58,951 bases of DNA from Gemmatimonas sp. (GTDB taxonomy: Bacteria > Gemmatimonadota > Gemmatimonadetes > Gemmatimonadales > Gemmatimonadaceae), in contig JANYJW010000032.1 of NCBI GenBank assembly GCA_025361705.1, positions 1 to 58,951 of the forward strand, in the 5' to 3' direction. This document shows, piece by piece, positions 5,921 through 32,623 of the stretch; positions within the stretch are counted from its first letter, which is position 1; each line of letters begins with the position of its first letter. Both the position numbers and the translations under genes were made by a program. The notes beneath the pieces are model-generated. The model was given only the letters and a program-made list of their open reading frames with translations. It had not been told where the DNA came from and did no database searches.

Positions 5921-5951
5921 TCACCGGGCGCACCACCACGAGCGTGCACGC

Positions 5952-6506: not shown

Positions 6507-6517
6507 CGCAGCGCACG

Positions 6518-6580: not shown

Positions 6581-6582
6581 CC

Positions 6583-7892
<1,310 letters not shown>

Positions 7893-7893
<1 letters not shown>

Positions 7894-14240: not shown

Positions 14241-14243
14241 CCC

Positions 14244-15827: not shown

Positions 15828-17342
15828 ATGATCTTCGATCTCGCGAATCCGTCGCAGCTCATGCAGGCCTTCGGGCCCGACCTGCTGCTCATGGCCGGGG
15901 CGATGGTACTGATGCTGTGGGCCGCCTGGCGTCCCGAGTCGCATGAGCACCAGCGCGCCGTCGGCATGGGCGCCCTGGTGCTCATCGCGGCGACGATGGG
16001 CCTCACCATCTGGTACGCGACGCGCGGCCTGTCGTCGACGCTCGGCGTCATCGCCGTCGACAACTTCCGCTGGGCCACCGACCTCATCTGCCTGCTCGGG
16101 GCGTTTGGCGCGATTGCGCTGAGCATCGAGTACAACGCCCGCGAACGCATCATGCCCGCCGAGGCGCATGTGCTGGTGCTCTTCGCGACGGCCGGCATGA
16201 TGGTGCTGGCCGCCGCCCGCGACCTGATGATCGTTTTCCTGGGCATCGAGTTGATGTCGGTGGCGATCTACGTGCTCGCCGGGCTCAACCGCCGCAGTCC
16301 CAAGTCGGCCGAAGGATCGCTCAAGTACTTCCTGCTGGGCGCCTTTGCCACGGGGTTCCTGCTGTACGGCATCGCGCTCGTGTACGGGTCCACGGGTTCC
16401 ACCAACCTCGTCGAGATCGGACAGCGCGTGGTGAATGGGAACTACATCGTGCACCCGATGATGCTCGTGGGCACCGGGCTGCTGCTGGTGGGCTTTGGCT
16501 TCAAGGTGGCTGCGGCGCCGTTCCACATGTGGGCGCCGGACGTCTACGAAGGCGCGCCGACGCCGATTACGGCGTTCATGGCCACCGCGGTAAAGGCGGC
16601 CGCGTTCGCCACCTTCCTGCGCGTCTGGCTCGAGGCGCTGGGCGGAATGGGCGATGCCTGGTTCGCCCCGGTCTGGTGGCTGGCGGCCGTCGCCATGTTC
16701 GTCGGCAACACGGTGGCCCTGTCTCAGCGCAACGTGAAGCGCCTGCTGGCGTATTCGTCGATCGCGCACTCCGGGTACCTGCTGGTGGCCGTCGCCACGG
16801 GGACGCTCGCCGGGTCGGCCGCATTCCTGTTCTACCTCGTGGCGTACACGCTCGCCTCGTTCGGCGCGTTCGCCATCGTCATCACGGTCGGCAGCACGGG
16901 CGACGTGCACGGCAACCTCGAGGATTTCGAGGGGCTGTGGAGCGTGCGTCCGGGCATGGCAATCGCCATGGGCGTGTTCATGCTGTCGCTGATGGGCTTT
17001 CCGATCTTCGGCGGCGTCGGCTTCTTCGGCAAGTGGTACCTGCTGATGGCGGCCATCGAGGCCCCGCGGCCGCTCACCACGCTGGCGGTGGTGCTCGTGC
17101 TTACCTCGGTGGTGTCGGCGGGCTACTACCTGAACGTGCTGCGCGTGATGTTCATGAAGCCGCGCCCCGAGGGGGCGCCCGTGGTTGAGCGCGCCGGCGT
17201 GCTGACGCGCGGCGTGGTCTTCGCCACCGTGCTCGCGATTCTCGTGCTGGGCGTCATCCCCAGCCGTGCGATCGGGTGGAGCAGGGCAAGCATTCCTCGA
17301 GCGCCACAAGTCCAGGCGGCGGCCGTCAACGCACCACGCTGA
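15828..17342 (+). CDS. nuoN: NADH-quinone oxidoreductase subunit N
   Basis: The third antiporter-like subunit and last gene of the operon, 504 residues. LGIELMSVAIYVLAGLNRR (~138-156), AAAPFHMWAPDVYEGAPTPI (~226-245) and LLAYSSIAHSGYLLVA (~304-319) are diagnostic. The ATG follows the nuoM TAA with no gap. A GC-rich hairpin lies 9 bp after the stop, which ends the operon. Confidence 0.97.
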   Translation: MIFDLANPSQLMQAFGPDLLLMAGAMVLMLWAAWRPESHEHQRAVGMGALVLIAATMGLTIWYATRGLSSTLGVIAVDNFRWATDLICLLGAFGAIALSIEYNARERIMPAEAHVLVLFATAGMMVLAAARDLMIVFLGIELMSVAIYVLAGLNRRSPKSAEGSLKYFLLGAFATGFLLYGIALVYGSTGSTNLVEIGQRVVNGNYIVHPMMLVGTGLLLVGFGFKVAAAPFHMWAPDVYEGAPTPITAFMATAVKAAAFATFLRVWLEALGGMGDAWFAPVWWLAAVAMFVGNTVALSQRNVKRLLAYSSIAHSGYLLVAVATGTLAGSAAFLFYLVAYTLASFGAFAIVITVGSTGDVHGNLEDFEGLWSVRPGMAIAMGVFMLSLMGFPIFGGVGFFGKWYLLMAAIEAPRPLTTLAVVLVLTSVVSAGYYLNVLRVMFMKPRPEGAPVVERAGVLTRGVVFATVLAILVLGVIPSRAIGWSRASIPRAPQVQAAAVNAPR

Positions 17343-17424: not shown

Positions 17425-18789
17425 ATGATCAGCGCAGGCATCTTCCGCCAGTATGACATCCGCGGCGTGGTCGGCGACGACCTCACGCTGGAAGCGGCCG
17501 AGGGCATTGGCCGCGGCTATGCCGCGCTGCTCGTTGAGCGCGGCGTCCGCGGGGCGGTGGCCGTAGGGCGCGACAACCGCCTGAGCGGCGGCGCATTGCG
17601 TGACGCGCTGGTGAAGGGGCTCACGGACTGCGGCGTCGACGTGGTCGACATCGGAGTCGCACCCACCCCGGTGCTGTACTGGAGCCTGCACCACTGCGGC
17701 GTGGTCGGTGGCATCCAGGTGACGGGGTCGCACAATCCGCCTGAGTTCAACGGGTTCAAGCTCTGCATCGGCACGGCGTCGCTGCATGGGGACGGCATTC
17801 TGCGCCTGCATACGCTCATCGAAGGCAGCGTGAGCGCGCCCATCAAGGGGTCGGTGCGCACCGTCACGGTGCTCGACGACTACGTGAAGGACATCGCCGC
17901 CAAGGCGGGCCCGATCACGCGTCGCATCAAGGTCGTGGTGGACTGCGGGAACGGCGTCGGCGCGCTCACCGCGCCCCAGGTGTGCAAGGCGCTGGGCGTG
18001 GACGCGGAGTTCCTGTTTGCCGACAGCGACGGCACGTTCCCCAATCACCATCCCGACCCGACCGTGGTGGAGAACCTGCAGGACCTCATCGCAGCGGTCC
18101 GGCGCACGGGCGCGGAGGTGGGCATCGGCTTCGACGGCGACGCCGATCGCATTGGCATCGTCGACGGGCAGGGGACCATCATCTGGGGCGACTACCTGCT
18201 GCTCCTGTACGCACGCGACGTGCTCGCGCGCACCGGCACGGGGCAGTCGATCATCTTCGACGTGAAGTGCTCACAGGCACTGCCCGACGGGATTCGTGCC
18301 GCAGGCGGCAACCCCGTGATGTGGAAGACCGGGCACTCGCTCATCAAGGAGAAGATGAAGGAGCTGCACGCGCCGATCGCCGGCGAGATGTCCGGGCACA
18401 TGTTCTTCACCGAAGGCTTCTACGGCCACGACGACGCCGTGTACGCTGCCGCGCGCCTGCTCCGCATCCTGGGTGACACGGGCAAGCGCGTGGACGAGCT
18501 GCTGGCCGACGTGCCGCGCTTCGTGAGCACGCCGGAGCTGCGCGTGGACTGCCCGGATGACCGCAAGTTTACCATCGTCGCGGCGGCGCAGAAGTATTTC
18601 GCGGCGCGGCGTGACGTCGTGGACGTGGATGGCGCGCGCATCCTGTTTGGCGACGGATGGGGCCTCATCCGCGCCTCCAACACGCAGCCAATTCTCGTGA
18701 TGCGATTCGAGGCGAAGTCCGATGAGCGGCTGGCTGAGATCCGCGCCGAGGTGGAGGGCTGGCTGAAGACGCAGGGTGTCGGCGCATAG
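17425..18789 (+). CDS. Phosphomannomutase/phosphoglucomutase
   Basis: An alpha-D-phosphohexomutase, 454 residues from ATG 17425 (MISAGIFRQYDIRG, the usual N-terminus of the PMM/PGM group). An in-frame ATG at 17392 would add 11 residues. The phospho-Ser loop TGSHNPPEFNG has Ser102, the Mg loop DGDADRIG is at 237-244, GEMSGHMFF is the sugar-binding loop, and RASNTQP near the C-terminus binds phosphate. It interconverts hexose 6- and 1-phosphates for LPS and polysaccharide precursors. ManB/AlgC-type specificity is likely but unproven. It lies between the nuo terminator and the UPF0182 gene. Confidence 0.92.
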   Translation: MISAGIFRQYDIRGVVGDDLTLEAAEGIGRGYAALLVERGVRGAVAVGRDNRLSGGALRDALVKGLTDCGVDVVDIGVAPTPVLYWSLHHCGVVGGIQVTGSHNPPEFNGFKLCIGTASLHGDGILRLHTLIEGSVSAPIKGSVRTVTVLDDYVKDIAAKAGPITRRIKVVVDCGNGVGALTAPQVCKALGVDAEFLFADSDGTFPNHHPDPTVVENLQDLIAAVRRTGAEVGIGFDGDADRIGIVDGQGTIIWGDYLLLLYARDVLARTGTGQSIIFDVKCSQALPDGIRAAGGNPVMWKTGHSLIKEKMKELHAPIAGEMSGHMFFTEGFYGHDDAVYAAARLLRILGDTGKRVDELLADVPRFVSTPELRVDCPDDRKFTIVAAAQKYFAARRDVVDVDGARILFGDGWGLIRASNTQPILVMRFEAKSDERLAEIRAEVEGWLKTQGVGA

Positions 18790-18790
18790 C

Positions 18791-21235
18791 ATGACCGTGC
18801 GACGCGGCCTCGCGCTGGCAGGCGCCGCACTGGCGCTGGCGCTGGTCGCCGGGCGCCTGCTGTCGGCCGCGTACGCAGACTGGGCGTGGTACACGGCCCT
18901 CGGCGCGGGTTCGCTTTGGAGCGTGCGCCTGGCGACGCTCACCGCGCTGCGCAGCGGGCTGTTTCTCGTTGCGTTCACGTTTGCGTTCGGCAACGTGCTG
19001 GCGATGCGCCGCTCGATCGTGTCGCTTGTCCTGCCACGGCAACTCGCCAATCTCGAGATTGGTGAAGCGGTTCCAGGCCGTGCGCTCACGGCGGCGGCGG
19101 CTGGCATGAGTCTGGTCATCGCGGCGGGCCTCGCGCTGACGCAGGATGACTGGTTGGCAGTATTGCGGGCCCAGTGGGCGACCCCCCTTGGCGAAATCGA
19201 CCCGTACCTGAGCCGCGACCTCGCGTTCTGGGTAGGGTGGTTGCCGTTCGAACGCATGCTCCACGACTGGAGCGTGACGCTCGCCGTCGTCGTGGGCATG
19301 ATCGTGATGCTCCTGTACGGTCTCACGCCGTCGGTGCAGGTGAAGCGCGGCCATGTGCACGTGTCCACCTGGGTGCGCCGCCACTTCGCTCTGTACTCCG
19401 GCGTGCTGCTGCTGCTCGTCGCCTGGGGCTATCGCCTTGACGCGTTCGACCTGCTGATTCACGGCAGCGGCGCGCGCGAGACGTTCATCGCATTTGACCA
19501 CCTCATCCTGTATCCGTACCTCATCGCCGTCGGCATAGGCACTGCTGCGACCGGCGTGCTGGTGGCGTGGACGGGGTGGATGGGGCATCAACGGGCAACG
19601 TTCGCTGCGCTGCTGTTGACCCTGCTGGCTGGCCCGGTGGGGCGAGGCATCCTGCCGCTCCTCGACCGGCGCACAGCCACCGAGCGGGAGCGCAGCACCA
19701 TCGACCGTCCGTACGAGCGGGTGCGCGTGCTGTTCACCCGCCGGGCCTACAGGGTGGACGACATCGTGCGGGGTGCCGCGGCCGACAGCCTGCGCGTGGC
19801 GGACGAACGGCTCGCCCATAGCGTGAGCAGCTGGGATCCCGCCGCCCTTGCACGCGCTGCATCGGGGCAGGCTGGGGTCGTGCCGATCACGGGCGGTCAC
19901 GCATGGCAGGTGGGGACCGGTGGTGCGATTGCAGCGACCATCGCCTATGGTGCCGGCGCGGACGGCCGGCACTTGCCGCTCGCCGTGCAATCCGTCGATC
20001 CGTCGGACGCCGACGAGCGCGGCGCGCCATGGCCGGCGGCCGATCCGACCATCCCGACGCTCCCCCCGTTGGTGGTGGGGCTCGGATTGCCCGGCGTGGC
20101 GCTGATGGCTGATTCGTTGGGGCGTGTGGCAAGCCCGACCTTTGCCGCCGGCTGGCGGCGGCTCGCGCTGGCGTGGAGCGTGCAGAACGTGCGGCTCGCG
20201 TTCAGCGACGCCGACCCGATGCGCACCAGGCTGTTGACGCGCCGCGACGTGCTCGAGCGCGTGCGGGCGCTCGTCCCGTTCTTCACGACCGGCGTCACGC
20301 CGCAGGCGATGGTGGTGCACGATTCGCTGTGGTGGAGCGTCGAGCTGTTTCACGCGAGCAGTGACTACCCGCTGTCCGAGCAACAGCTGCTCGGTGGCGA
20401 GTCGCAGCATTTTGCGGTGGGGGCCGGTGTGGCGTTGGTGAACGCACACAGCGGCCGAGTGCTAGTGGTGCTGCCCGACCGCCCCGACAAGATGACCCGC
20501 TGGTGGCGCGATCAGCTGCCGGCGTTGTTCGCGCGCCGATCGGTCGCTGACGCCGACCTCGTGGCGGCGCTTCCGCCGCCCGTGGACCGCGCGACGGTAC
20601 AGGGCAGCGCCCTGGCGCGCACCGGGTTCCGCACGGACACGCTCGCCGCGCGCCCGCTCTTTCAGGCCGACGACGCAGACGAGGACCTGCTGTCGCGGAC
20701 ACCCACGTCCTTCGTGAGTGCGGCGAAAGGCCAGCCGCTGGCGTGGGGTGTTCCAGCCGTCGACGGCACCGACCGCGTGCGGGGCATCTTCCTGGCGGTC
20801 GGCGGGGCGCAGCAACGCACGATGCTGGTGGAGCAGCGAGACAGCCTGCGGTGGGCCGGGATCCTCGACCGCCTGCAGCACGTTGCGGACAGCGCGCAGA
20901 TCAGCCGGTCTCGGCGGTATCCGCGGCGCGGGCGCGTGCAGGTGGTGCCAATGCGCGATGGCATGCTGGTGGTGCAGGCCTTCTACGACTGGCCGCCGGA
21001 GCGTGAGCCGTCGCTCACGGGCATCGTGGCGCTGCGCACCGGTCAACCGGCGCGGGTGGCGGGCTCGCTCGCCGAGGCCTTTGGCCAGGGCGCGCGCCCG
21101 CCCGACGGCGATGGACGCCTGCGGCTGCGGCTTGCGCGGGTCTACGGCCAGTTGCAGGACGCCCTGCGGCAGAGTGACTGGGCCGCATTCGGCCGCGCCA
21201 TGGCGGAACTGCGCCGACTCTCAGGTGAGCGGTAG
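18791..21235 (+). CDS. UPF0182 family membrane protein
   Basis: About 814 residues from ATG 18791. The N-terminal ~290 residues form about seven transmembrane helices with the family hallmarks YADWAWYTALGAGSLWSVRL and DPYLSRDLAFWVGWLPFERM. The rest is a large soluble domain containing the family-type segments RPYERVRVLFTRRAYRVDDI and VRLAFSDADPMRTRLLTRRD. It is somewhat shorter than many members (about 900-1000 residues). The function of the family is not established. It starts 1 bp after the upstream mutase stop, so the two are probably cotranscribed. Confidence 0.85.
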   Translation: MTVRRGLALAGAALALALVAGRLLSAAYADWAWYTALGAGSLWSVRLATLTALRSGLFLVAFTFAFGNVLAMRRSIVSLVLPRQLANLEIGEAVPGRALTAAAAGMSLVIAAGLALTQDDWLAVLRAQWATPLGEIDPYLSRDLAFWVGWLPFERMLHDWSVTLAVVVGMIVMLLYGLTPSVQVKRGHVHVSTWVRRHFALYSGVLLLLVAWGYRLDAFDLLIHGSGARETFIAFDHLILYPYLIAVGIGTAATGVLVAWTGWMGHQRATFAALLLTLLAGPVGRGILPLLDRRTATERERSTIDRPYERVRVLFTRRAYRVDDIVRGAAADSLRVADERLAHSVSSWDPAALARAASGQAGVVPITGGHAWQVGTGGAIAATIAYGAGADGRHLPLAVQSVDPSDADERGAPWPAADPTIPTLPPLVVGLGLPGVALMADSLGRVASPTFAAGWRRLALAWSVQNVRLAFSDADPMRTRLLTRRDVLERVRALVPFFTTGVTPQAMVVHDSLWWSVELFHASSDYPLSEQQLLGGESQHFAVGAGVALVNAHSGRVLVVLPDRPDKMTRWWRDQLPALFARRSVADADLVAALPPPVDRATVQGSALARTGFRTDTLAARPLFQADDADEDLLSRTPTSFVSAAKGQPLAWGVPAVDGTDRVRGIFLAVGGAQQRTMLVEQRDSLRWAGILDRLQHVADSAQISRSRRYPRRGRVQVVPMRDGMLVVQAFYDWPPEREPSLTGIVALRTGQPARVAGSLAEAFGQGARPPDGDGRLRLRLARVYGQLQDALRQSDWAAFGRAMAELRRLSGER

Positions 21236-21285: not shown

Positions 21286-21301
21286 TGTGACGTACATCAC
21301 A
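21286..21301. promoter_or_regulatory. Perfect CRP-type palindrome TGTGA-N6-TCACA
   Basis: TGTGA (21286-21290) and TCACA (21297-21301) flank CGTACA, an exact match to the Crp-family consensus. It lies 133-148 bp upstream of the cytochrome cluster, in an AT-richer gap. Further downstream are two nested inverted pairs, gttacc/ggtaac and atgcct/aggcat (about 21316-21366), which may form a leader hairpin. No clear -10/-35 pair could be assigned. A Crp/Fnr-family regulator is inferred. Confidence 0.6.
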
Positions 21302-21433
21302 TATTTGCAGCCTTCGTTACCTTTTTCCTGATGCCTCGTCGGACGTTGTAAGGCATTACAGGTAACAAACTCCTTAGCCGCCGCCGATGGCCGCTCAGGG
21401 CTATTTGCATACCACCCTCACCCCTGTCGTCGG

Positions 21434-22468
21434 ATGAATCCGCTGCACACGGCCCGTGACAGAGAAACCGTCGCATCGCCAGCGCCTGACAGGGCTCGCC
21501 GCCCGTCCCTGACGCCGTCGACGGCACCTGTTGTGGCGAAGCGGAAAGAGAGCAAGGGTGCGTGGGTGACGGCCGCGCTGATGCTCCCGCTCGTTGCGGT
21601 GAACGTCTGGGGCGCGACGTATTATCTCGCAGCGCCCGGCGGGCGTGTTCGCCATCCGCTGCACACGCTGCTGCGACCATCCGGCTTGGTGGGACAGAGC
21701 ACGGGCATCGCGGCGTTCGCGATCTTCGTCTTCCTGTGGCTGTACCCGTTGCGAAAGAAGTACAAGCGGCTTGCGTTCACCGGATCGGTGGGCAAGTGGC
21801 TCGACATTCACGTCGCCTCGGCGCTCCTGCTGCCGCTGCTGCTGGCCACGCACGCCGCGTGGCATTCCGATGGCGTAATTGGCCTTGGCCTCGTGGCGAT
21901 GCTCGTGGTGATCGCGAGCGGGGTGGTGGGGCGCTACCTGTATACCCGCATTCCCCGCGCGAAGAGCGGCATGGAACTGTCGCGCGAGGAGACGGCGAGC
22001 GCCCGGATGGACCTCCTGCAGCGGCTGTCCGACACCACGGGAATGACGGTCGCCGACCTCGAGGGGATGCTCTCGACGGGACAGGACGAGGAAAGCCGTG
22101 GCATTCTTCCCGCGCTCCGGCGCATGGTGCTGAACGACTTCACGCGCCGCCGGCGCTGTCGGGAACTGCGCAACCGCTGGATGGCGACGCGTGAGCGCAG
22201 GGCGCAGGACAGCGCGCCGGCGCATGACGAGCGCCGGCAGACGAACCGGGGGCCACAACGCTCGCTGACCGGTCGCGCCCTCGACGAGGCGGTCGCGCTG
22301 GCCGACCGCGAGATCGCGTTGCAGCAGCAGGTGCGCATGCTCGAGGCAACGCACCGCGTCTTCAAGTTCTGGCATGTCGCGCACCGGCCGTTCGCGGTTA
22401 CGGCGCTGCTGGCCGTCGTGGTGCACATCGCCGTGGTCGTTTCGCTCGGCGCAACCTGGTTCTGGTAA
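21434..22468 (+). CDS. Integral membrane protein, predicted di-haem cytochrome b
   Basis: 344 residues with about five helices (~42-66, 85-107, 122-144, 148-170, 318-343) and a long charged cytoplasmic segment between helices 4 and 5 (~172-315). Helix 3 has His126 and His140 and helix 5 has His317 and His331. Both pairs are 14 apart, the H-x13-H spacing used in bc-type cytochrome b to hold two stacked b haems across the membrane. No closer family was recognised. As first gene of the cytochrome cluster and 3 bp before the flavoprotein gene, it probably moves electrons through the inner membrane or to and from quinone. Haem binding is inferred from spacing only. Confidence 0.7.
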   Translation: MNPLHTARDRETVASPAPDRARRPSLTPSTAPVVAKRKESKGAWVTAALMLPLVAVNVWGATYYLAAPGGRVRHPLHTLLRPSGLVGQSTGIAAFAIFVFLWLYPLRKKYKRLAFTGSVGKWLDIHVASALLLPLLLATHAAWHSDGVIGLGLVAMLVVIASGVVGRYLYTRIPRAKSGMELSREETASARMDLLQRLSDTTGMTVADLEGMLSTGQDEESRGILPALRRMVLNDFTRRRRCRELRNRWMATRERRAQDSAPAHDERRQTNRGPQRSLTGRALDEAVALADREIALQQQVRMLEATHRVFKFWHVAHRPFAVTALLAVVVHIAVVVSLGATWFW

Positions 22469-22471
22469 GCC

Positions 22472-23899
22472 ATGCTCCTCACCACCTTCGGCTTCTTTGC
22501 CCTGACGGGGCTCCTCGTCTGGCTGCACTTGCGTTCGAGCGGGGGCGGGGGCGGAGCTCGACCAAGTGGCCATGTCGCGCGCCCGTCGGCCCCATGCCCG
22601 CGTTGCCAGAAGCCGGTCGTCGTCGGGAGTACGTTCTGCCCGGGATGCGGCGTGCCTCTGCAGGCGTTTGAGGTCGTGCAGGCGAAGATCGCGACGGGCC
22701 CGCAGACATCCACGGGGGTGCCAAAGGCGGCGGTCCGGGCCGACATGTGTGTCGGGTGTGGCACCTGCGTGGCCGCCTGTCCGGAACCGGGCGCAATCGT
22801 CCTGGTGCACAAGCTGGCGGTCGTGAACGATGACCTCTGCAAAGGACACGGCGAGTGCGTGCGCGGCTGTCCGGTCGGCGCCATTTCCGTGGTGACGGGG
22901 ACGGCGGTGAACCGCGTGCGCGTGCCGTTGATCAACGCCAACTTCGAAACCAGCGTCCCCGGCATGTACATCGTGGGCGAGCTCGGCGGCCGAGGCCTGA
23001 TCAAGAACGCCATTAATGAGGGCAAGATGGCGGTCGAGCATATCGTTCAGCAGCTCGAGGGCACCGAGGTGCCGCCCTGCGACGAGCCGTTCGTTGATGT
23101 AGCGATCGTGGGCTCGGGGCCGGCGGGCTTGAGTGCCGGCCTCGAGTCGATGCGCCGCCACCTGAGTTGCGTGGTGATTGAGCAGGGCTCGCTTTCCGAC
23201 ACCGTGCGCAAGTATCCACGCCACAAGCTGCTGCTGGCAGAACCGGTGCAGGTGCCCCTGTACGGCGACCTGTGGATCGCGGATGCCTCCAAGGAGACGT
23301 TGCTGCAGGTGTGGGAGACAATTGTCGCCAACACCGGCCTGCCGGTGCGCACGGGCGAGCGCGTGACCGGTGTCGCGCGCGATGGCGCGTTCTTCCGGGT
23401 CCAGACGGCGCTCGGTTCGCAACTGGCGCGCAAGGTGGTGCTCGCGCTCGGGCGCCGCGGCACGCCGCGCAAGCTCGACGTGCCGGGCGAGGAGCTCGAC
23501 AAGGTGTTCTACGACATCGTCGAGATGGAGGCATTCGCGGGCAAGCGCGTGCTGATCGTCGGCGGCGGCGACAGCGCCATCGAGTCGGTGCTTGGCCTGA
23601 TCAACCAGCCGGACACCACCGTGACGCTGTCGTATCGCGGCACGGCGTGGGACCGGGTGAAGGAGCGCAACCGCGAGAAGTTGCAAAAGGCGATCGCCGC
23701 CGGAAAGCTATCGCCGATGCTCGAGAGCCACGTGCGCGAGATCCGGCACGACGTCGCCGTCCTCGAGGTGGACGGGGAGACGACGATTCTGCCCAACGAC
23801 TTCGTGGTCGTGCGGGTCGGAGGCGAGGCGCCGTATGCGATGCTCGAGCGGTTGGGAGTGCAAATCGTCGAGAAAGAAGTCGCCGCGAGGGCCGGATAG
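22472..23899 (+). CDS. Membrane-anchored zinc-ribbon/ferredoxin/flavin NAD(P) oxidoreductase, permuted
   Basis: 475 residues. Order: membrane helix 4-20; zinc ribbon C42-C45/C56-C59; ferredoxin motif C93-C96-C99-C103; second motif C123-x2-His126-x2-C129-x3-C133, where the second Cys is His; FAD GSGPAGLSAG (214-223); NAD(P) VGGGDSAIES (363-372). A TSVPGMYIVGE...GLIKNAINEG segment (~160-185), normally the C-terminal FAD motif of thioredoxin-reductase-like proteins, lies before the Rossmann fold, so the flavin domain appears circularly permuted. No redox Cys pair (CxxC) sits in the flavin domain. The likely job is electron exchange between NAD(P)H or ferredoxin and the adjacent cytochrome b on the cytoplasmic side. 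The exact donor is unknown. Confidence 0.8.
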   Translation: MLLTTFGFFALTGLLVWLHLRSSGGGGGARPSGHVARPSAPCPRCQKPVVVGSTFCPGCGVPLQAFEVVQAKIATGPQTSTGVPKAAVRADMCVGCGTCVAACPEPGAIVLVHKLAVVNDDLCKGHGECVRGCPVGAISVVTGTAVNRVRVPLINANFETSVPGMYIVGELGGRGLIKNAINEGKMAVEHIVQQLEGTEVPPCDEPFVDVAIVGSGPAGLSAGLESMRRHLSCVVIEQGSLSDTVRKYPRHKLLLAEPVQVPLYGDLWIADASKETLLQVWETIVANTGLPVRTGERVTGVARDGAFFRVQTALGSQLARKVVLALGRRGTPRKLDVPGEELDKVFYDIVEMEAFAGKRVLIVGGGDSAIESVLGLINQPDTTVTLSYRGTAWDRVKERNREKLQKAIAAGKLSPMLESHVREIRHDVAVLEVDGETTILPNDFVVVRVGGEAPYAMLERLGVQIVEKEVAARAG

Positions 23900-25933
23900 A
23901 TGCAGACGATGCGACTGGCGACGATGCTGGTCGGGCTCTCGGTCATGATGGGAGCGCCGCTGCACGCCCAGATTTCTCCGGGGCCGCTGGCGCGCGCGCA
24001 CGCCAAGTTCGAGGGGTCCACGAACTGCGTGAAGTGCCACGGGCTCAAGAAGGAGCCGATGGCGCAGCGGTGCCTTGCCTGTCATAAAGAAGTGGCCTGG
24101 CTGATCGAGAACAACCGCGGCGTGCATGCGAACTCGCGCAATGTGCCGCACAAGGAGTGCGCGCAATGCCACCCCGACCACGCCGGTCTCGACTTCGCGA
24201 TGGTCGACTGGGGCAAGGGCGGCTCGGCCGAGTTCGACCACAAGCGCGCCGGCTGGGAGCTCGACGGCAAGCATGCCAAGGCCAAGTGCACCGCCTGCCA
24301 CACGTCAGAGTTCCGCAAGTCGCCGTCCGCCGCGCTTTCGCCTCGCACCACGGGTGCCGGATGGATGGGGCTCGAGACGGCCTGCATCTCATGCCACGCC
24401 CGCGATGACGTGCACAAGAACGCGCTGGGCAACCAGTGCGAGCGCTGCCATGATGCCGCGGACTGGAAGAAGCCGACCCGCTTTGATCACGCCAAGTCGT
24501 CGTATCCGCTGACCGGCAAGCACGCGAACGTGGAGTGCGACAAGTGCCACAAGCCGGCGAAGCTGAACCTCAGGCCGGATGAGAAGGGCCGCACTATCGG
24601 TCTGTACAAGCCGCTGCCATTCGCCGAGTGCTCGGCGTGTCACGCCGACCCGCACAAGGGGCGCTTGTCCCCCAAGTGTGGCGACTGCCACTCGACCAAG
24701 GATTTCAAGGACGTCAACCGCAAGGACTTCGACCATTCGCGGACGCGGTACCCGCTGACCGGCAAGCATCTCACCGTGCAGTGTGAAGCGTGTCATGCCG
24801 TGGGCCTCACCAAGAAGGCACCGCCCTTTGCGAAGTGCACCGACTGTCACGCCGACGCTCATTTTGGCCGCGGCACGCTGCGTGGGCAGCCAGCGGACTG
24901 CGCCGCTTGCCACCGCGTGGAGGGTTTCGTGCCCTCGACGTATACGGTGGCGCAGCACGCCGCGACGAGCTTTGTGCTCGGAGGCCGCCACGCCGACGTG
25001 AAGTGCGCGCTCTGCCACGTGGCGTCGGACTCGATGGTGCGAGGTACGCCCCGGCGCACCGTTCGCCGCGTGCAGCTGCGCCCGCAGGCCGCCGCCTGCG
25101 GCAACTGTCATGCCGACGCGCACCTTGGCGCTCCCGCGAACACGGCAGGCGCTGCGACATGCATCACGTGCCACGACGATCGCGGATGGTCGCCAACGAC
25201 GTTCACGATCGCGCGGCATGCCGCCCTCAAGCTGCCGCTTGACGGCGCGCACCAGCCACTGGCGTGCGCGCGCTGCCACATCGCCGTGAAGCCGGCGACT
25301 GCCGTGGTCCTCGCAACCGGACGCAAGGCGACGGCCGCCGTGCCGCTGCGGGTGGCCGTCGCCTGCGAGAGTTGCCACCTCGATCCGCACGCCGGCCGCT
25401 ATGTCGCCGGCGGGCCGCAGGTCACCGCCGATGGGTGCCGGGCCTGCCACGACACGCGCCGGTTCGTCCCGTCCACGCTGGCGGTGGCGCGGCACGCCAC
25501 GCTCGGCTTTGCGCTGGACGGCGCGCACCGGAGCATCCCGTGCCGCGAGTGCCACAAGGAGCTGGGTGTCGCCAGCAAGTCGTCACTCAAGGTCTCGGGA
25601 GCGTCGCCCGCCGCGCGACTGCCGTTCAGTGGGGCACGGCGGTCCGCCTGCATCGCGTGCCACGCCGACCCGCACGCGGGCCAGTTCAACGCCCGCAAGG
25701 GTGGCGGCACGTGCGAGAGTTGCCATGACGCCGCCCAGTGGACCGGCGCGGTCCGATTTGTCCATGATCGTGATTCATCCTTCCCGCTGGCCGGCGCGCA
25801 TTCGCGCGTTCCCTGCGTCGCGTGCCATGTGCACACGCCGCAGTCCGGCGGGGGGACGCGGGTGCAGTACCGTCCGTTGCCGACCGCCTGTGAGGGCTGC
25901 CACACGGACGCCAGCTTGAGGAAACGTCCATGA
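23900..25933 (+). CDS. Exported 23-haem c-type cytochrome
   Basis: 677 residues with a Sec signal peptide (cleavage probably after PLHA or AQ, ~23-25) and no lipobox. I count 23 CXXCH haem-binding motifs, about one per 28 residues, starting at CVKCH (~43). Recurring FDH, TGKH/GAH and CHADxH elements offer His as sixth ligands, so most haems are probably bis-His and low potential. It resembles cytochrome c3/c7-type multi-haem proteins. It should sit in the periplasm, or be plugged into an outer-membrane pore, and take electrons from the inner-membrane partners encoded just upstream. It is followed by a 4-bp overlap with the next cytochrome gene. Confidence 0.93.
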   Translation: MQTMRLATMLVGLSVMMGAPLHAQISPGPLARAHAKFEGSTNCVKCHGLKKEPMAQRCLACHKEVAWLIENNRGVHANSRNVPHKECAQCHPDHAGLDFAMVDWGKGGSAEFDHKRAGWELDGKHAKAKCTACHTSEFRKSPSAALSPRTTGAGWMGLETACISCHARDDVHKNALGNQCERCHDAADWKKPTRFDHAKSSYPLTGKHANVECDKCHKPAKLNLRPDEKGRTIGLYKPLPFAECSACHADPHKGRLSPKCGDCHSTKDFKDVNRKDFDHSRTRYPLTGKHLTVQCEACHAVGLTKKAPPFAKCTDCHADAHFGRGTLRGQPADCAACHRVEGFVPSTYTVAQHAATSFVLGGRHADVKCALCHVASDSMVRGTPRRTVRRVQLRPQAAACGNCHADAHLGAPANTAGAATCITCHDDRGWSPTTFTIARHAALKLPLDGAHQPLACARCHIAVKPATAVVLATGRKATAAVPLRVAVACESCHLDPHAGRYVAGGPQVTADGCRACHDTRRFVPSTLAVARHATLGFALDGAHRSIPCRECHKELGVASKSSLKVSGASPAARLPFSGARRSACIACHADPHAGQFNARKGGGTCESCHDAAQWTGAVRFVHDRDSSFPLAGAHSRVPCVACHVHTPQSGGGTRVQYRPLPTACEGCHTDASLRKRP

Positions 25934-28926
25934 CCTGGGCGCTACGCTTCTTTGTCCTGTTTGCCTTGACGGGTGTCACCGTGCAGGGGCAGACCGTGGT
26001 CACCACCAACCCGCACGGCCCGAACATCGGCGCCTGCGCCACGTGCCATCTGGCCAACGCCTGGCGTCCCGCGCGCATCAGCAAGCAGTTCGTGCACGCG
26101 GCGGGTGTTTTCGGGCTTGACGGCGCGCATGAGCGCACGGCCTGCACCGCCTGCCACGCGTCCCTCGATTTCAGCAAGGCGCCCACGACCTGCGCGCAGT
26201 GCCACCGGGACGTGCACAACGCCGAGCTGGGCACCAACTGCGCGCAGTGCCACACGACGCGCAGCTTTGTGGACCAGACCAACCTCAAGCGCATGCACGA
26301 GCTCACGCGCTTTCCGCTGCGCGGCGCACACGTCGCGCTCGCCTGCGAGAGCTGCCATCCGTCGGCCATGCCGGGGCAATCACAATTCCGCGGCCGGCCG
26401 ACCACCTGCATTGGCTGTCACTCGGCGCAGTACCGCGACGCGAAGGCGCCGGACCATCAGGCGGCCGGGTTCCCCCAGGATTGCACGCAGTGTCACTCCA
26501 ACTCCACCTGGACGGGCGGCAAATTCGACCATGGCGCGACCAGATTCCCGCTCACGTTTGCGCATGCCGCTGTCAGTTGCGACAAGTGCCATAGCGACGG
26601 CGTGTTCCGGGGCCGGTCCATGGTCTGCGTGTCGTGCCACCAGAGCGATTACAACTGGTCGAAGAATCCGCCGCACGCGGCCGGCGGCATGCCGACGGAC
26701 TGTGCGTTGTGCCACACCATGAAGTCGTGGAAGGAAGGGACGTTCAACCACGATGTGACCGCATTTCCGCTCACCGGCGCGCATCGTGCCGTGCTCTGCT
26801 CGAGCTGCCATGCCGACGGGCAATACAAGGGACGTCCGACGGCGTGCACTGCGTGTCACCAGACCGACTACCAGAAGTCGATGCGGCCACCGCACGCCCT
26901 GCTCACGTTCTCGGCCGCCTGTGCGACGTGTCACACCACCACCGCGTGGGCCGGGGGCACGTTCGATCACAACACGACGGCATTCGCGCTCACCGGCGCC
27001 CACAAGACGGTAGCCTGCATGTCCTGTCATGCGAACGGGGTCTACCGCGGACATGCCTCGACCTGTGCGGCGTGTCACCAGGCCGACTACAACGCCAGCA
27101 AGAACCCGCCGCACCAGAGCGGTGGCTTCCCGGTGACGTGCAAGGACTGCCATAGCACGACCAGTTGGCTGGGATCCGCGTTTGACCACAACGTGACGCA
27201 GTTCCCGCTGACCGGCGCGCACAAGACCGTGGCGTGCACGTCGTGCCACGGCGATGGCGTGTACCGTGGCAAGAGCAATGCCTGCTCGTCGTGCCACCAG
27301 ACCAACTACAGCAATACCACGCTGCCTCCGCACCAGGCGCTCGGGTTCTCGACGGCGTGCGCAACCTGCCATACCACCACCGCCTGGCTTGGCGCGTCGT
27401 TCGATCACAACACCTCGGCCTTCCCGCTGACCGGCGCGCACCGGACCGTGGCATGCAGCAGCTGCCATTCCAACGGGGTGTATCGCGGCCATGCCTCGGC
27501 GTGTGTCGCGTGCCATCAGGCGAACTACGCGGCCACGAAGACGCCGCCGCATGCCGCGTCAGGATATCCCACGACCTGCGCGTCGTGCCACGGCACCGCC
27601 TCGTGGACTGGCACCAGCTTCGATCACGCGACGACGCGCTTTCCGCTGACGGGAGCGCACAAGACGGCGGCGTGCGCCTCCTGCCATGGCGACGGTGTCT
27701 TCAAGGGCAAGAGCATGGACTGCTTCTCGTGCCATCAGCCCAAGTACGCCGCCACGTCGCACCCGCCGCACCAATCGCTGGGGTTCTCCACGGCGTGCGC
27801 CACATGCCATGGAACGACGGCGTGGCTGCCGGCGACCTTTGACCACAATACCACGGCCTTCCCGCTGGCCGGCGCGCACAAGGCAGCGGCATGCACCGCG
27901 TGCCACGGCGATGGCGTCTACAAGGGCAAGGCAACCACGTGCGCGGGCTGCCATCAGGCGAAGTACGCTGCGACGAAGACCCCGGCGCATGCGGCCTCGG
28001 GCTTCCCGACGACGTGCCAGATCTGCCACAACGTCACGGCGTGGACACCGGCAGCCTACGATCACTCGACCACGCTGTTCCCATTGACCGGGGCGCACCG
28101 GACGGTCTTGTGCGCGTCATGCCACGGCGATGGCGTGTACAAGGGCAAGAACACCGCCTGCGCCTCGTGCCATCAGCCCGACTACACCAGTTCCAAGTTG
28201 CCGCCGCACTCGTCGCTCGCCTTCTCCACGGCCTGCGCAACGTGTCATACGACGACGGCCTGGGCGGGCGGGTCCTACGATCACAACGTGACCCGCTTTC
28301 CGCTCACTGGGGCGCATCGCGCCGTCCCGTGCGCGTCGTGTCACGGCGACGGCGTCTTCCGCGGGAAGAACATGGCCTGCGTCGGATGCCACCAGGCGAA
28401 GTACGACGGCTCGGCGAACCCGCCGCACAAGTCGGCGGGTTTCCCGACGACGTGCGAAGTGTGCCACGGGACGACGGCGTGGACGCCGGCGACATTCAAT
28501 CACTCGGCGACGCTCTTCCCGCTCACCGGGGCGCATATCGGCAAGGCCTGCTCGGCATGCCATGGCGATGGCGTGTACAAGGGCAAGCCGACGACGTGCG
28601 TCAGCTGCCACCTGGCGGTCTACAACTCCGCCACGAGCGTGAACCACAAGTCGGCCGGTTTCCCGACCACCTGCGAATCGTGCCACACGACGACGAAGTG
28701 GGCGGGGGCGACGTTCAACCACGAGACGTTCTTCCCCATCAAGACGGGCAAGCACACTGGAATCGCGTGCGCCACCTGCCACACGGTGGCGACGAACTAT
28801 GCCTCGTTCTCGTGCTTCAGCTGCCACTCCCAGAGCAAGATGAACAGCGCGCACCAGGGGCGCGCGGGCTACGCCTACAACAGCACGCTGTGCTACCAGT
28901 GTCACCCGACGGGGAAGAAGCCGTGA
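25930..28926 (+). CDS. Exported 40-haem c-type cytochrome with tri-haem repeats
   Basis: 998 residues with a Sec signal peptide (to ~20, VTVQGQ) and 40 CXXCH motifs by direct count: four in the N-terminal part, eleven tri-haem units (33) and three in the C-terminal cap. Ten consecutive units are 72-73 residues; an earlier one of 78 begins at residue 128. Each unit reads FPLTGAH..., CxSCHGDGVYKGK, CxxCHQxxY, PPH, CxxCHxTTxW, FDHN. It thus offers three haem motifs and three extra conserved His (GAH, PPH, FDH), enough to give each haem a second His ligand. Such a regular, haem-dense rod suggests a long electron wire in or beyond the periplasm. ATG 25930 overlaps the previous gene by 4 bp. Confidence 0.93.
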   Translation: MTWALRFFVLFALTGVTVQGQTVVTTNPHGPNIGACATCHLANAWRPARISKQFVHAAGVFGLDGAHERTACTACHASLDFSKAPTTCAQCHRDVHNAELGTNCAQCHTTRSFVDQTNLKRMHELTRFPLRGAHVALACESCHPSAMPGQSQFRGRPTTCIGCHSAQYRDAKAPDHQAAGFPQDCTQCHSNSTWTGGKFDHGATRFPLTFAHAAVSCDKCHSDGVFRGRSMVCVSCHQSDYNWSKNPPHAAGGMPTDCALCHTMKSWKEGTFNHDVTAFPLTGAHRAVLCSSCHADGQYKGRPTACTACHQTDYQKSMRPPHALLTFSAACATCHTTTAWAGGTFDHNTTAFALTGAHKTVACMSCHANGVYRGHASTCAACHQADYNASKNPPHQSGGFPVTCKDCHSTTSWLGSAFDHNVTQFPLTGAHKTVACTSCHGDGVYRGKSNACSSCHQTNYSNTTLPPHQALGFSTACATCHTTTAWLGASFDHNTSAFPLTGAHRTVACSSCHSNGVYRGHASACVACHQANYAATKTPPHAASGYPTTCASCHGTASWTGTSFDHATTRFPLTGAHKTAACASCHGDGVFKGKSMDCFSCHQPKYAATSHPPHQSLGFSTACATCHGTTAWLPATFDHNTTAFPLAGAHKAAACTACHGDGVYKGKATTCAGCHQAKYAATKTPAHAASGFPTTCQICHNVTAWTPAAYDHSTTLFPLTGAHRTVLCASCHGDGVYKGKNTACASCHQPDYTSSKLPPHSSLAFSTACATCHTTTAWAGGSYDHNVTRFPLTGAHRAVPCASCHGDGVFRGKNMACVGCHQAKYDGSANPPHKSAGFPTTCEVCHGTTAWTPATFNHSATLFPLTGAHIGKACSACHGDGVYKGKPTTCVSCHLAVYNSATSVNHKSAGFPTTCESCHTTTKWAGATFNHETFFPIKTGKHTGIACATCHTVATNYASFSCFSCHSQSKMNSAHQGRAGYAYNSTLCYQCHPTGKKP
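26311..28731 (+). repeat. Coding tandem repeat, about 219-bp period, 11 units
   Basis: A divergent 234-bp unit (26311-26544) is followed by ten in-frame units of 219 bp (the last 216) from 26545. Conserved positions are the CXXCH codons and the GAH, PPH and FDH codons; codon choice differs between units, so amplification is not very recent. Some unit pairs share alternating loop sequences (GVYRGHAS against GVYKGK), hinting at duplication of two-unit blocks. Confidence 0.9.
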
Positions 28927-30512
28927 CCGGGATGCTGTGGGTCGCCGCGCGCCGGGTGGCGCGCGGCGCGGCGTCCGTCGCACTGATCGGAGGCGCCCTG
29001 CGTGCGCAGGGCGTGCAGTCGCCGATCTGGACGCAAATCACGTACATCAGTGGCTCCACCATCTATCTCGAAGTGGGCAGCAAGCAGGGCCTCACCGAGC
29101 GCACCACCCTCGAGGTGATCAAGGGGGGCGCGGTGGTCGCCAAGCTGCACGTCACGGCGGTGTCGTCGGGACGCGCCGCCTGCGAGGTGCTGCCGCCGCC
29201 CATTGAACTCTCCGTCGGCGATTCCGTCCGTTTCGTCCCCGTCGTAGCGGCGGTCACGCCGACGACGGTGAAACGCGCGGCGCCCTCCTACAGCGGCACC
29301 GGACATCTGCGCGGTCGCGTCGGCCTGCGCTATCTCGTCATCGCGCCTGATGGCGATGTGCCCGGCGGGCTCACCCAGCCGGCCTACGACCTCCGGCTCG
29401 ACGGGCAGCAGCTGGGTGGCACCGGGCTTGGTGTGACTCTCGACGTGCGCGCCCAGCGCACGCAATACGCCGGGACGAGCACGCAGACCGCGAGTGCGCC
29501 CGTGAACGCCACCCGCGTCTATCAGGCGGCGCTGACATGGGCGGCGCTCAGCGCGGGGCTGCGCGTGACTGCAGGGCGGCAGATGGCCGGTTCGATGTCG
29601 TCGGTGGGACTGTTTGACGGACTCGCCATCGATCTCGATCGACGCCACCTCGGCATGGGTGTCTTCGCGGGCTCGCAGCCGGATGCCTATTCCTTCGGCC
29701 CGTCAAGCCTCGTGCGTGAGTACGGCGCCTACACGCAGGTGCATACCGTCAACAGCAGTCGCACCACGTCATCGCTGACGGTCGGCGGCGTCGGCTCGTA
29801 CGTGGGACGCGAGATTGACCGCGAGTACGCCTTCGCGCGCCTCACCGCGTCCGGGAAGTACCTGTCGATCTATGCCACGCAGGAGCTGGACTTCAATCGC
29901 GGATGGCGGCTCGACGCCGAGCACAAGGCCACGACGCCGACCGCCACGTTCGCAAGCGTGCAGTTCAGTCCGGTGCGCGCGATCTCCATCTATGGCGGGG
30001 TCGACAATCGGCGGAGTGTGCGGCTGTACCGCGACTACGTGAGCCCGGAACAGTCGTTCGATGACGCATTCCGCGAGGGCACATGGGAGGGCGTTGCTCT
30101 CAGCGCGCCGCGGTATGCGCGCGTCAGCGTCGACCGGCGCGACAGCCGGGGGGGAAGCGGAGGCAATGCGAACTCCACGACGGCGATGGCGAGCCTGACC
30201 GGGTTCACGCGCCTGCACATCGGCTTGCGCGCCCGCGCCACGGACTTCAGCGGCGATATGTCGTCGGGCCAACTCGCCTCGGGCGCACTCGAAATCAGCC
30301 CGTGGGACTTCCTGCGCGTGGAAGGCAATGGCGGCGCGCGGCGCACATCGATTCCCGGATCGACCGATGCGCCGTCAAAGCTGACGTGGTGGGGGGTAGA
30401 TGCTGACGTCGGTATCGGGCGTTCCCTGTACCTCCTGCTGTCGACTTATCGCGAGCAGGAGGCCGGCCGCGGTTCGTTGCGGACGTACGCGTCACTCAGT
30501 TGGCGATTCTAG
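28923..30512 (+). CDS. Probable outer-membrane beta-barrel (porin-like) partner of the cytochromes
   Basis: 529 residues from GTG 28923 in a GTGA overlap with the 40-haem gene; ATG 28932 is an alternative. The signal peptide covers residues ~5-28 (VARGAASVALIGGALRAQG). Residues ~30-100 form a small beta domain (WTQITYISGSTIYLEVGSKQ, then TTLEVIKGGAVVAKL). The remainder alternates hydrophobic and polar residues in many strands (AALTWAALSAGLRVTAGRQ, LYLLLSTYRE) and ends SLSWRF, with the terminal Phe typical of Bam-assembled barrels. No haem motifs. By position it would be the pore of a porin-cytochrome conduit; no sequence identity to MtrB or OmbB is claimed. Confidence 0.68.
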   Translation: MTGMLWVAARRVARGAASVALIGGALRAQGVQSPIWTQITYISGSTIYLEVGSKQGLTERTTLEVIKGGAVVAKLHVTAVSSGRAACEVLPPPIELSVGDSVRFVPVVAAVTPTTVKRAAPSYSGTGHLRGRVGLRYLVIAPDGDVPGGLTQPAYDLRLDGQQLGGTGLGVTLDVRAQRTQYAGTSTQTASAPVNATRVYQAALTWAALSAGLRVTAGRQMAGSMSSVGLFDGLAIDLDRRHLGMGVFAGSQPDAYSFGPSSLVREYGAYTQVHTVNSSRTTSSLTVGGVGSYVGREIDREYAFARLTASGKYLSIYATQELDFNRGWRLDAEHKATTPTATFASVQFSPVRAISIYGGVDNRRSVRLYRDYVSPEQSFDDAFREGTWEGVALSAPRYARVSVDRRDSRGGSGGNANSTTAMASLTGFTRLHIGLRARATDFSGDMSSGQLASGALEISPWDFLRVEGNGGARRTSIPGSTDAPSKLTWWGVDADVGIGRSLYLLLSTYREQEAGRGSLRTYASLSWRF

Positions 30513-30608: not shown

Positions 30609-31754
30609 GTGAACATTCATGAATACCAGGCGAAGGAGATTTTGCGCGGATTCGGCGTGCCGATTCCGAACGGCAAGATCGCCACGACGCCTGCTGACGC
30701 GGAAGCGATCGCCAAGGAACTTGGCGTCGCGGTTATGGTGAAGGCGCAAGTGCACGCCGGCGGCCGCGGCAAGGCCGGCGGCGTGAAGTTCTGCAAGACG
30801 CCCGCGGATGCCAAGGAGAAGGCCACGGCGATCCTTGGCATGCAGATCAAGGGACTGACGGTGGAAAAGGTGCTCGTCACGGTGGCCGCCGACATCGGCA
30901 GCGAGGCGTACGTCGGCATCATCGTCGACCGCCAGCGCAAGAAGCCGGTGTTCATGGTGTCCGCCGCCGGCGGCATCGACATCGAGCAGGTGGCCGCGCA
31001 GACGCCGGAGAAGATCCTCTATCTCCCCGTCGACACGAGGTACGGGCTGCGCAGCTACGAAGCCATGCGCATGGGCTTCTTCCTGTACGACGACGTGAAG
31101 CGCGCGCGGCAGGCGGCCAAGATCATGCAACAGCTCTACGCCGCCTTCATGGCGAGCGGCTGCTCGCTGGCCGAAATCAACCCGCTCGTCGCCACGCCCG
31201 CCGGCGAACTGATTGCGGTGGACGGCAAGATGGTGATCGACGACAATGAACTCGATCGGCGCCCCGAAATCGAAGCACTCCGCGACGTGTCGTCCGAGGC
31301 CCCGTCCGAAGTGGACGCGCGGAACTCCAACCTGACGTTCATCAAACTGGAAGGCGACGTTGGCTGCGTGGTCAATGGCGCCGGCCTCGCCATGGCCACG
31401 ATGGACCTCGTGAAGTACTACGGCGGCGAGCCGGCCAACTTCCTCGACATCGGCGGGTCGTCCAATCCGGAGAAGGTGGTGAACGCCCTGCGCATCATCA
31501 CCGCCGATGCCAACGTGAAGTGCATCCTGTTCAACATTTTCGGCGGCATCACGCGCACCGATGACGTGGCCAACGGCATCGTCACGGCCACCAAGGCGAA
31601 CCCGCTGAAGGTGCCGATCGTGATTCGCCTCACGGGCACCAACGAAGAGATCGCCATGAAGATCCTCACCGACAACGGTTTCACCGCGTCGGCCGACATG
31701 GACGAGGCCGTCATCAAGGCCGTCAAGCTGGCGAAGGGAGGGCAGGCCGCGTGA
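30609..31754 (+). CDS. sucC: Succinyl-CoA synthetase (ADP-forming) beta subunit
   Basis: 381 residues, the ATP-grasp subunit of the TCA-cycle enzyme that makes ATP from succinyl-CoA. The N-terminus [20 protein letters not shown], the nucleotide loop [16 protein letters not shown] (~45-60), and the C-terminal [16 protein letters not shown] (CoA-ligase domain) are canonical. The start codon is GTG at 30609. It overlaps sucD by 4 bp. The 96-bp upstream gap has a short G+C inverted repeat (ggcgccgctcggcgc) but no promoter I would trust. Confidence 0.97.
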
Positions 31755-32623
31755 GCATCTTCATCAACAAGGACACCACGCTGGTGGTGCAGGGCATCAC
31801 GGGCCGCGACGGCTCGTTCCACACCAAGCAGATGATCGAATACGGCACGAACGTCGTGGCTGGTGTCACCCCAGGAAAGGGCGGCCAGAAGTTCGATGAC
31901 GCGGTCCCGATCTTCAACACGGTGCACGATGCCGTCGCGGCGACGGGCGCCAACACGTCGGTGATCTATGTGCCGCCGATGTTCGCGGCCGACGCCATCA
32001 TGGAAGCGGTGGACGCGGGATGCGCGATGGTCGTGTGCATCACCGAAGGCGTGCCGGTGCTCGACATGACGCGCGTGTATCCCTTCGTGAAGGAACGCGG
32101 CGCGCGACTGCTCGGCCCCAACTGCCCGGGCCTCATCTCGCCGGGGCAGGCCAAGGTTGGCATCATCCCGGGGCGCATCTGCATTCCAGGCAACGTGGGT
32201 GTCGTCAGCCGCTCGGGCACGCTCACCTATGAAGTCGTCTACCAGCTCACGCGGGCCGGCCTCGGCCAGACCACGTGCGTCGGCATCGGCGGCGACCCGA
32301 TCAACGGCACCAACTTCATCGACTGCCTCGACGCATTCGAGAAGGATCCGCACACCAAGGCCGTGGCGATGATGGGCGAAATCGGCGGCACGGACGAACA
32401 GGAAGCCGCGGACTTCGTCAAGCATCACATGACCAAGCCGGTGGTGGGCTTCATCGCAGGCCAGACGGCGCCTCCGGGACGCCGCATGGGGCACGCGGGG
32501 GCGATCATTTCGGGTTCTGCCGGTACGGCCGCCGAGAAGATCGAAGCGTTCAAGGCGGCGGGCATTGGCGTCGCGGTGCGCCCGATGGACTTCGTGGAAC
32601 TCATCAAGGCGAAGCTGCACTAG
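31751..32623 (+). CDS. sucD: Succinyl-CoA synthetase alpha subunit
   Basis: 290 residues from GTG 31751, coupled to sucC by a GTGA overlap. It has the CoA-binding Rossmann start ([20 protein letters not shown]), [15 protein letters not shown], and the phospho-His loop [14 protein letters not shown] with the catalytic His at about 248. It forms the alpha-beta unit with SucC. Length matches the family. Confidence 0.97.

Follow-up and report, generated by a model that had tools for sequence, protein, structure and literature searches.

Well-studied porin–cytochrome conduits take electrons from the quinol pool. The locus described here, five adjacent genes on the forward strand of a contig of Gemmatimonas sp. 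(JANYJW010000032.1, assembly GCA_025361705.1; the window analyzed is its positions 1 to 58,951), probably encodes a trans-envelope electron conduit of the type called PCC3, accompanied by a flavoprotein. PCC3 is a predicted conduit of Proteobacteria, known from neutrophilic iron oxidisers (He et al. 2017; PMC5566968), and its described range covers Sideroxydans, Leptothrix, Gallionellaceae, and other Proteobacteria. The parts listed in that source are a porin, an extracellular multihaem cytochrome (MHC; median 34 haems), a periplasmic MHC (median 21), and an inner-membrane protein (IMP) of ~300 aa with five transmembrane (TM) helices, an SGXXG motif on TM4, and WX3HX13H motifs on TM3 and TM5. 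The MHCs have 22–39 aa per haem and are built of repeats, and the porins are mostly many-stranded, with up to 42 strands (PMC5566968). Slit_0867–0870 and Slit_1446–1449 are reference PCC3 clusters; in the latter, the order is IMP, periplasmic MHC, extracellular MHC, porin (PMC12016527), with 24 and 28 haems in the MHCs (PMC8788666). In Gallionellaceae, the periplasmic PCC3 cytochromes carry 21, 24, or 27 haems (PMC10734462). The function of PCC3 is described as unverified (PMC12442390).

The five-gene set appears to fit the PCC3 type closely, when compared by gene order, motifs, and haem density as described in these sources. The four components are present in the order of Slit_1446–1449, with gene 2 in addition. 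The genes are packed as tightly as a first-pass annotation of this DNA had stated, with junctions of +3, 0, −4, and −4 bp (or +5 for the last, with the ATG start of gene 5). Gene 1 (21434..22468, + strand, 344 aa) is a probable di-haem cytochrome b of the inner membrane and, like the PCC3 IMP, it has five hydrophobic segments, SGXXG on the fourth (residue 162), and two WX3HX13H motifs on helices 3 and 5 (His126/140 and His317/331). The first-pass annotation had the H-x13-H spacing right but counted a single helix pair. The four histidines are invariant across 31 homologues, both WX3HX13H motifs are kept in 30 of them (one motif in L097), and SGXXG is kept in all. Against Pfam, gene 1 reaches cytochrome b561 at E 0.041, below the cut-off, and its profile has no match at E 1 among PDB sequences.

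Gene 3 (23900..25933, +, 677 aa) encodes an exported cytochrome, a probable periplasmic wire, with 23 CXXCH motifs, and gene 4 (25930..28926, +, 998 aa) another, a probable extracellular wire, with 40; these are exactly the numbers first reported. Residue shuffles (500 each) give a mean of 0.2 and a maximum of 3 motifs for gene 3, and 0.5 and 4 for gene 4. Both match Cytochrome_C7 of Pfam (E 3.2e-31 and 6.9e-46), both are repetitive, and their 29.4 and 25.0 aa per haem lie within the 22–39 of PCC3. In gene 4, the motif spacing 32/16/25 recurs ten successive times, which makes ten tandem trihaem repeats of 73 residues (residues 199–928; 26524..28713, +). The sum of 63 c haems, previously taken to be far beyond known conduits, is ordinary for PCC3, since the medians there are 34 and 21.

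Haems were also counted in homologues, in complete open frames only. In 50 of the 52 complete copies assigned to gene 3 by script, there are 17, 20, 23, or 26 haems (19 and 22 in the other two), the same steps of three as in the Gallionellaceae cytochromes. Gene 4 homologues range from ~10 to 82 haems, and the count is 1 mod 3 in 34/48 (34/45 without L064, L101, and L102, which are gene 3 copies misplaced by the script). Few lengths for gene 3 and free lengths for gene 4 fit a fixed periplasmic span plus a free wire; we infer growth by trihaem modules, with the narrow range of gene 3 reflecting a fixed span between the membranes. The 82 CXXCH motifs belong to a Saprospiraceae metagenome-assembled genome (MAG) (L056 11800–18027), and a second contig of the same MAG (L055) repeats the start of the operon, either as a true copy or as an assembly duplicate.

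Neither cytochrome passes the NCBIfam cut-off for a nitrogen or sulfur respiratory family, the best scores being HmcA 30 vs. 400, NrfB 31 vs. 167, and DmsE 54 vs. 192 bits (the last with gene 4; gene 3 has 37 bits with DmsE). The Mtr, nitrite, sulfate, and DMSO cytochrome families were rejected for both genes, every score being under its cut-off. A periplasmic nitrogen or sulfur respiratory complex, named by the first-pass annotation as a match that would refute the conduit, is thus not recognized by these models. Single-sequence PDB searches with genes 3 and 4 give no match at E 0.001. The gene 3 profile finds weak matches to multihaem cytochromes (11 sequences at E ≤0.01; best 6qvm, E 2.9e-9, also 1z1n and 3ov0).

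Gene 5 (28923 with a GTG start that overlaps gene 4, or 28932 with ATG, to 30512, +; up to 529 aa) encodes a predicted exported, barrel-like protein of the outer membrane, the porin component. It has no Pfam or NCBIfam match of its own. Among 33 relatives, Porin_4 is matched in one (E 7.2e-6) and FlgT_C weakly in seven (best E 0.0052); against the PDB, the gene 5 profile finds only TsaP, at E 0.15. A home-made score of hydrophobicity alternation was applied to 33 homologues, at three thresholds and with shuffle controls. At the strictest threshold, gene 5 has 15 segments (shuffles: mean 3.8, maximum 11), and gene 2 has 11 vs. 9.6; at the looser ones, gene 5 has 19 vs. 8.3 and 28 vs. 15.6. With this score and a self-chosen threshold, ~22 alternating segments fall in residues 128–529. 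The protein ends in WRF, and the terminal residue is F or W in 30/33 homologues (28 F). The barrel statistics and the WRF end bear out the earlier description of an exported barrel-like protein with a terminal Phe, and they agree, indirectly, with a small N-terminal domain followed by a barrel in the outer membrane.

The co-occurrence of the five genes, proposed earlier as a check, was followed in two sets of sequences. Of 298 genomes in the phylum, the own genome among them, 297 match gene 2, mostly with ordinary reductases (relatedness is uncorrected in the counts and in the Fisher test). A specific gene 2 match, strong or partial, occurs in 30 other genomes (29 loci with at least 174 bits, plus G168), and gene 1 is present in 28 of these. 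In 50 chosen other genomes, a strong gene 1 match is found in none, and one, G144, has a weak relative (E 1.4e-9). For this co-occurrence (28/30 vs. 0/50 strong), the Fisher test gives 1.5e-19. The two gene 2-positive genomes without gene 1 are G050, where the contig starts inside gene 4, and G133, where the match is partial. The sample holds seven other genomes of the same genus, two with the operon and five without it, and in all five UPF0182 and sucC are directly adjacent. In G175, a 53-codon piece between UPF0182 and sucC (L138 3284–3442) aligns with the 48 C-terminal residues of gene 5 (58% identity) and is, by this match, a deletion scar of the barrel gene. From the adjacent genes and the scar, the unit is seemingly kept or lost whole within the genus.

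Across phyla, a profile scan with one genome per species and one peptide pattern gave 64 loci; L115–L118 (distant cytochromes, E 2e-9 to 8e-4) were excluded, and the window and Emticicia were added, making 62 records. The loci overlap the phylum set in part (e.g., L066 = G230:C8), and sequences of this kind, with Emticicia, went into the search models, so that their high scores are by construction. All five genes occur in loci titled Gemmatimonadetes, Bacteroidetes groups, Acidobacteria, Eisenbacteria, Krumholzibacteriota, and Planctomycetota. The record titles also include Saprospiraceae, Rhodothermia, other Bacteroidetes, Chrysopegis kryptomonas, several plain "bacterium," and one Deltaproteobacteria MAG with a locus cut inside gene 3. 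In this single-pattern scan, no locus is titled alpha-, beta-, or gammaproteobacterial, an absence that is not evidence, as several titles say only "bacterium." The full set, in the same order and with 23 + 40 haems, is present on plasmid pEMTOL02 of Emticicia oligotrophica DSM 17448, directly after ccsA. Of the 62 records, again uncorrected for relatedness, 57 contain gene 1, 53 gene 2, 54 the second large cytochrome (leaving out L111; the script tally is 55), and 37 gene 5. All five records that lack gene 1 start at the very edge of a contig. As we read the records, the other gaps in the set also coincide with a contig edge or lie past it, bar gene 2 in L057; L111 is unclear. The set is conserved together across phyla, and what is new, as read from these sequences, is its presence outside the alpha-, beta-, and gammaproteobacteria, in other phyla and with a conserved flavoprotein. 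One Gemmatimonadetes locus (L095 7596–14891) contains two tandem pairs of second cytochrome and barrel.

Besides extracellular electron transfer, the first-pass annotation had allowed for a periplasmic electron store. Such a capacitor would have no outside route, and gene 5 would be an unrelated outer-membrane protein or transporter. The 63 haems would make a large store, and capacitor roles have been proposed for PCC3 (PMC10734462) and for giant cytochromes of sludge bacteria (PMC11495043). On the other hand, gene 5 goes unmatched in 25 records, and in 24 of these the contig stops inside the gene or before reaching it (L111 is again unclear); the narrow lengths of gene 3 next to the free lengths of gene 4 fit a fixed span plus a free wire. 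The store is quite improbable, and extracellular transfer is favored of the two.

Gene 2 (22472..23899, +, 475 aa) is, as first described, a helix-anchored NAD(P)/FAD/Fe–S protein, a description borne out by domain matches and the N-terminal helix. It consists of that single helix, a zinc-ribbon-like CxxC pair, two 4Fe–4S-type motifs, and an FAD/NAD(P) oxidoreductase domain (Pyr_redox_3, E 7e-39, plus Fer4 domains, in Pfam), and it probably faces the cytoplasm. The anchor helix is present in 12 of the 13 homologues inspected (not in L085), and the zinc-ribbon cysteines are kept in 13/22 aligned homologues. The second 4Fe–4S-type motif, CxxHxxCxxxC with His for the second Cys (22838–22870, residues 123–133), is kept in 21/22. 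The position of gene 2 depends on the lineage: between genes 1 and 3, after gene 5, directly before gene 1, or upstream on the opposite strand. A FAD-motif-like stretch (22928–23092, residues 153–207), as found C-terminal in thioredoxin reductase (TrxR)-type enzymes, precedes the N-terminal FAD motif. Compared as a circular permutation with two reductases of the own genome, the flavin domain gives 4.7 and 1.2 bits (E 0.0026 and 0.031 in a two-sequence search), and it is possibly, on these weak scores, circularly permuted.

The conduit could instead be served by the quinone pool, with gene 1 a bc1-like, quinol-active protein and gene 2 an accessory, e.g., a YpdA-like thiol reductase aiding cytochrome maturation. 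He et al. suggest that PCC3 IMPs are quinone-active (PMC5566968), and the window contains complex I genes and a menaquinone-biosynthesis gene. The best NCBIfam resemblance of gene 2 is to YpdA, a putative bacillithiol disulfide reductase (E 7.6e-48), and its shifting position, with none near L057, also suits an accessory. Against this, its 162.9 bits are far under the YpdA cut-off of 339.9, it carries Fe–S motifs and an anchor, and its CxxC motifs are only at residues 42, 56, and 93, outside the flavin domain. Identity with YpdA was rejected on these grounds, and identity with thioredoxin reductase too (56 vs. 343 bits, no active CxxC in the flavin domain). Quinone feeding is possible, at somewhat less than even chances, and plasmids bear on it as well.

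Out of 29 plasmid records, six were examined besides Emticicia (Methylophaga, Pontibacter, Alteromonas, Variovorax, Bradyrhizobium, and Acetobacter), and each has a three-gene module. The module contains a five-helix cytochrome b found by the gene 1 model (E 4e-24 to 8e-15, scaled to a million sequences), a 7-haem cytochrome with a PGxL...H start resembling that of gene 3, and an oxidoreductase annotated as 2Fe–2S or FAD-binding (in Bradyrhizobium it is short and beside a transposase). With haem motifs masked, the start of gene 3 scores above all 300 shuffles for four of the six plasmid cytochromes (not for Methylophaga and Variovorax). The two oxidoreductases scanned with Pfam (Methylophaga and Pontibacter) are of the FNR/2Fe–2S type, a family other than that of gene 2. 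The modules differ from the locus in that no large second cytochrome or porin is annotated nearby (the hypothetical proteins there were not examined). With two flavoprotein families beside one cytochrome b family, and a different flavoprotein beside a homologous cytochrome b, the accessory role loses ground: the cytochrome b would exchange electrons with NAD(P)H or Fe–S carriers, which suggests that NAD(P)H, and not quinol alone, feeds gene 1. The chances of an NAD(P)H feed into the conduit are about even. A flavoprotein-coupled cytochrome b would then be, by inference, the main addition to the PCC3 model.

In the PCC3-type conduit preferred here, gene 2 would draw electrons from cytoplasmic NAD(P)H (or ferredoxin) and hand them to gene 1, which would move them over the inner membrane through its two b haems. 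Gene 3 would be a wire of fixed length, spanning the periplasm and docking in the gene 5 barrel, and gene 4 an outside wire of variable length, reducing minerals, humics, electrodes, or other cells. Several points weigh against this. The cytochromes are assigned to their sides by gene order, and the location of gene 4 outside the cell is an assumption. Crude hydropathy counts for the 31 gene 1 homologues give five helices in 22, four in seven, and six in two. The first Fe–S motif of gene 2 is one Cys short in 5/22 homologues, including that of Emticicia, and genes 1, 3, 4, and 5 of the Acidobacteria locus L057 stand in 22 kb of sequence that lacks gene 2. The four parts listed for PCC3 include no flavoprotein, and the ~22 segments estimated for gene 5 (home-made score) would be about half of the up to 42 strands described for PCC3 porins. 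In Sideroxydans ES-1, both PCC3 clusters are down on Fe(II) (PMC8788666), so that a role in iron is no more than possible.

That PCC3 is known from neutrophilic iron oxidisers (PMC5566968) also raises the inward direction, with electrons of Fe(II), Mn(II), minerals, or partner cells entering through gene 4 and reaching quinone, NAD(P)+, or ferredoxin. For Sideroxydans CL21, above-mean expression is reported for each of the two PCC3 copies, and the copy 2 IMP increases significantly when iron oxidation is possible (PMC12442390). The down-regulation in ES-1 points the other way. In the own genome (93% complete), a search at E 1e-3 for the large subunit of RuBisCO, the one carbon-fixation route looked for, found nothing. 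Inward reduction of NAD(P)+ would cost membrane potential. The genome also has two COX1 matches, besides two Cytochrom_C_asm genes. Inward flow seems unlikely, and export is the preferred direction, because of the flavoprotein partner, the membrane potential, the terminal oxidases, and the undetected RuBisCO.

The own genome contains other candidate routes. MtrB_PioB is matched on three contigs, each time beside a decahaem cytochrome over the DmsE-family cut-off (L144 7031–10404 on C68, L145 6055–9400 on C34, and L146 5867–9284 on C7); the one porin tested with the NCBIfam MtrB model has 104 vs. a cut-off of 240. With the conduit and these three Mtr-type pairs, the host seems to be an electroactive organism with many routes. 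For one Gemmatimonadetes genome, Mtr genes have been published before (PMC8805035). Near the C34 pair are a tetrahaem cytochrome, a TtrB/DsrO-like Fe–S protein, and an NrfD-like protein (the latter two below cut-offs). On contig C15 (L143 5183–12557), successive open frames have 6, 4, 13, and 19 CXXCH motifs, and the 13- and 19-haem proteins have a C-terminal match to a formate-dehydrogenase-gamma-type cytochrome b (below cut-off), as if a wire were fused to a cytochrome b.

The gene set was earlier said to start at 21286. No gene begins there; the position is the first base of a perfect palindrome, TGTGA-N6-TCACA (21286..21301, unstranded), 132 bp upstream of gene 1, which we take to be of the CRP/FNR type. 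It is the sole match without mismatch in the 58,951 bp, and with at most one mismatch there are three matches vs. 1.22 expected. A one-mismatch palindrome lies near the approximate start of gene 1 in 5/26 relatives (one slightly within the gene), vs. a total of 0.19 expected from mononucleotide shuffles, and no such site is found near gene 1 in the two closest relatives, L034 and L035. As a control site, the palindrome is a weak candidate. The neighborhood is mostly housekeeping (4613–17339, 18776–21235, 30609–32623, 40292–41452, and 56035–57540). The Pfam matches in the window include, besides the respiratory genes already mentioned, UPF0182 and sigma-54, and sucC and sucD were labeled by reading translations.

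The fuller reading, a quinone-independent extracellular wire fed by NAD(P)H or ferredoxin and present in at least six phyla, is put forward tentatively. It would combine a NOX-like cytochrome b, a swappable flavoprotein, a periplasmic wire set in trihaem steps, and an outer wire of up to 82 haems (in the Saprospiraceae MAG). If the flavoprotein is tied to the inner-membrane cytochrome, the entry point and the energetics would differ from those of quinol-fed conduits. To our knowledge, Gemmatimonadota, Saprospiraceae, Eisenbacteria, and Krumholzibacteriota are rarely listed as electroactive. Emticicia oligotrophica DSM 17448, a named strain with the full set, makes the idea testable in culture if the plasmid is kept, and the haem counts of whole modules form a natural series for studying how the length of such a wire in the periplasm is determined.

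In the literature searched, no paper was found that pairs PCC3 with a Gemmatimonad, nor PCC3, porin, and heme with Bacteroidota. Giant cytochromes in Saprospiraceae are already published (PMC11495043), and ferredoxin–NADP reductase genes near other porin–cytochrome clusters were noted in 2026 (PMC13264449); with these reports, the flavoprotein association by itself has some precedent. The logic of a porin–cytochrome conduit, seen in the first-pass annotation by analogy with MtrCAB and OmbB–OmaB–OmcB, is supported by the co-conservation of the genes, the barrel statistics of gene 5, and the lack of respiratory-family matches under the models used; the proteins do lie outside the Mtr families, no cut-off being reached, but a third type, PCC3, was overlooked. 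MtrCAB and MtoAB likewise combine a porin with periplasmic and (in Mtr) extracellular multihaem cytochromes; they differ by decahaem cytochromes and an MtrB_PioB porin, a match that gene 5 does not have. The OmbB–OmaB–OmcB system and related Geobacter systems share a porin plus two exported cytochromes, with 8 and 12 haems there (PMC4245776; compared by description only). A published OmbB-type model matched, in a Burkholderiales genome, a porin next to cytochromes with 24 and 49 haems (PMC7399161), so a distant link to OmbB is possible. A comparable arrangement is that of the NOX/FRE enzymes, in which a cytoplasmic flavoprotein passes electrons from NAD(P)H to a di-haem cytochrome b that has two HX13H pairs. 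The analogy would be functional: gene 1 matches no such Pfam family, and the predicted path here continues into multihaem wires.

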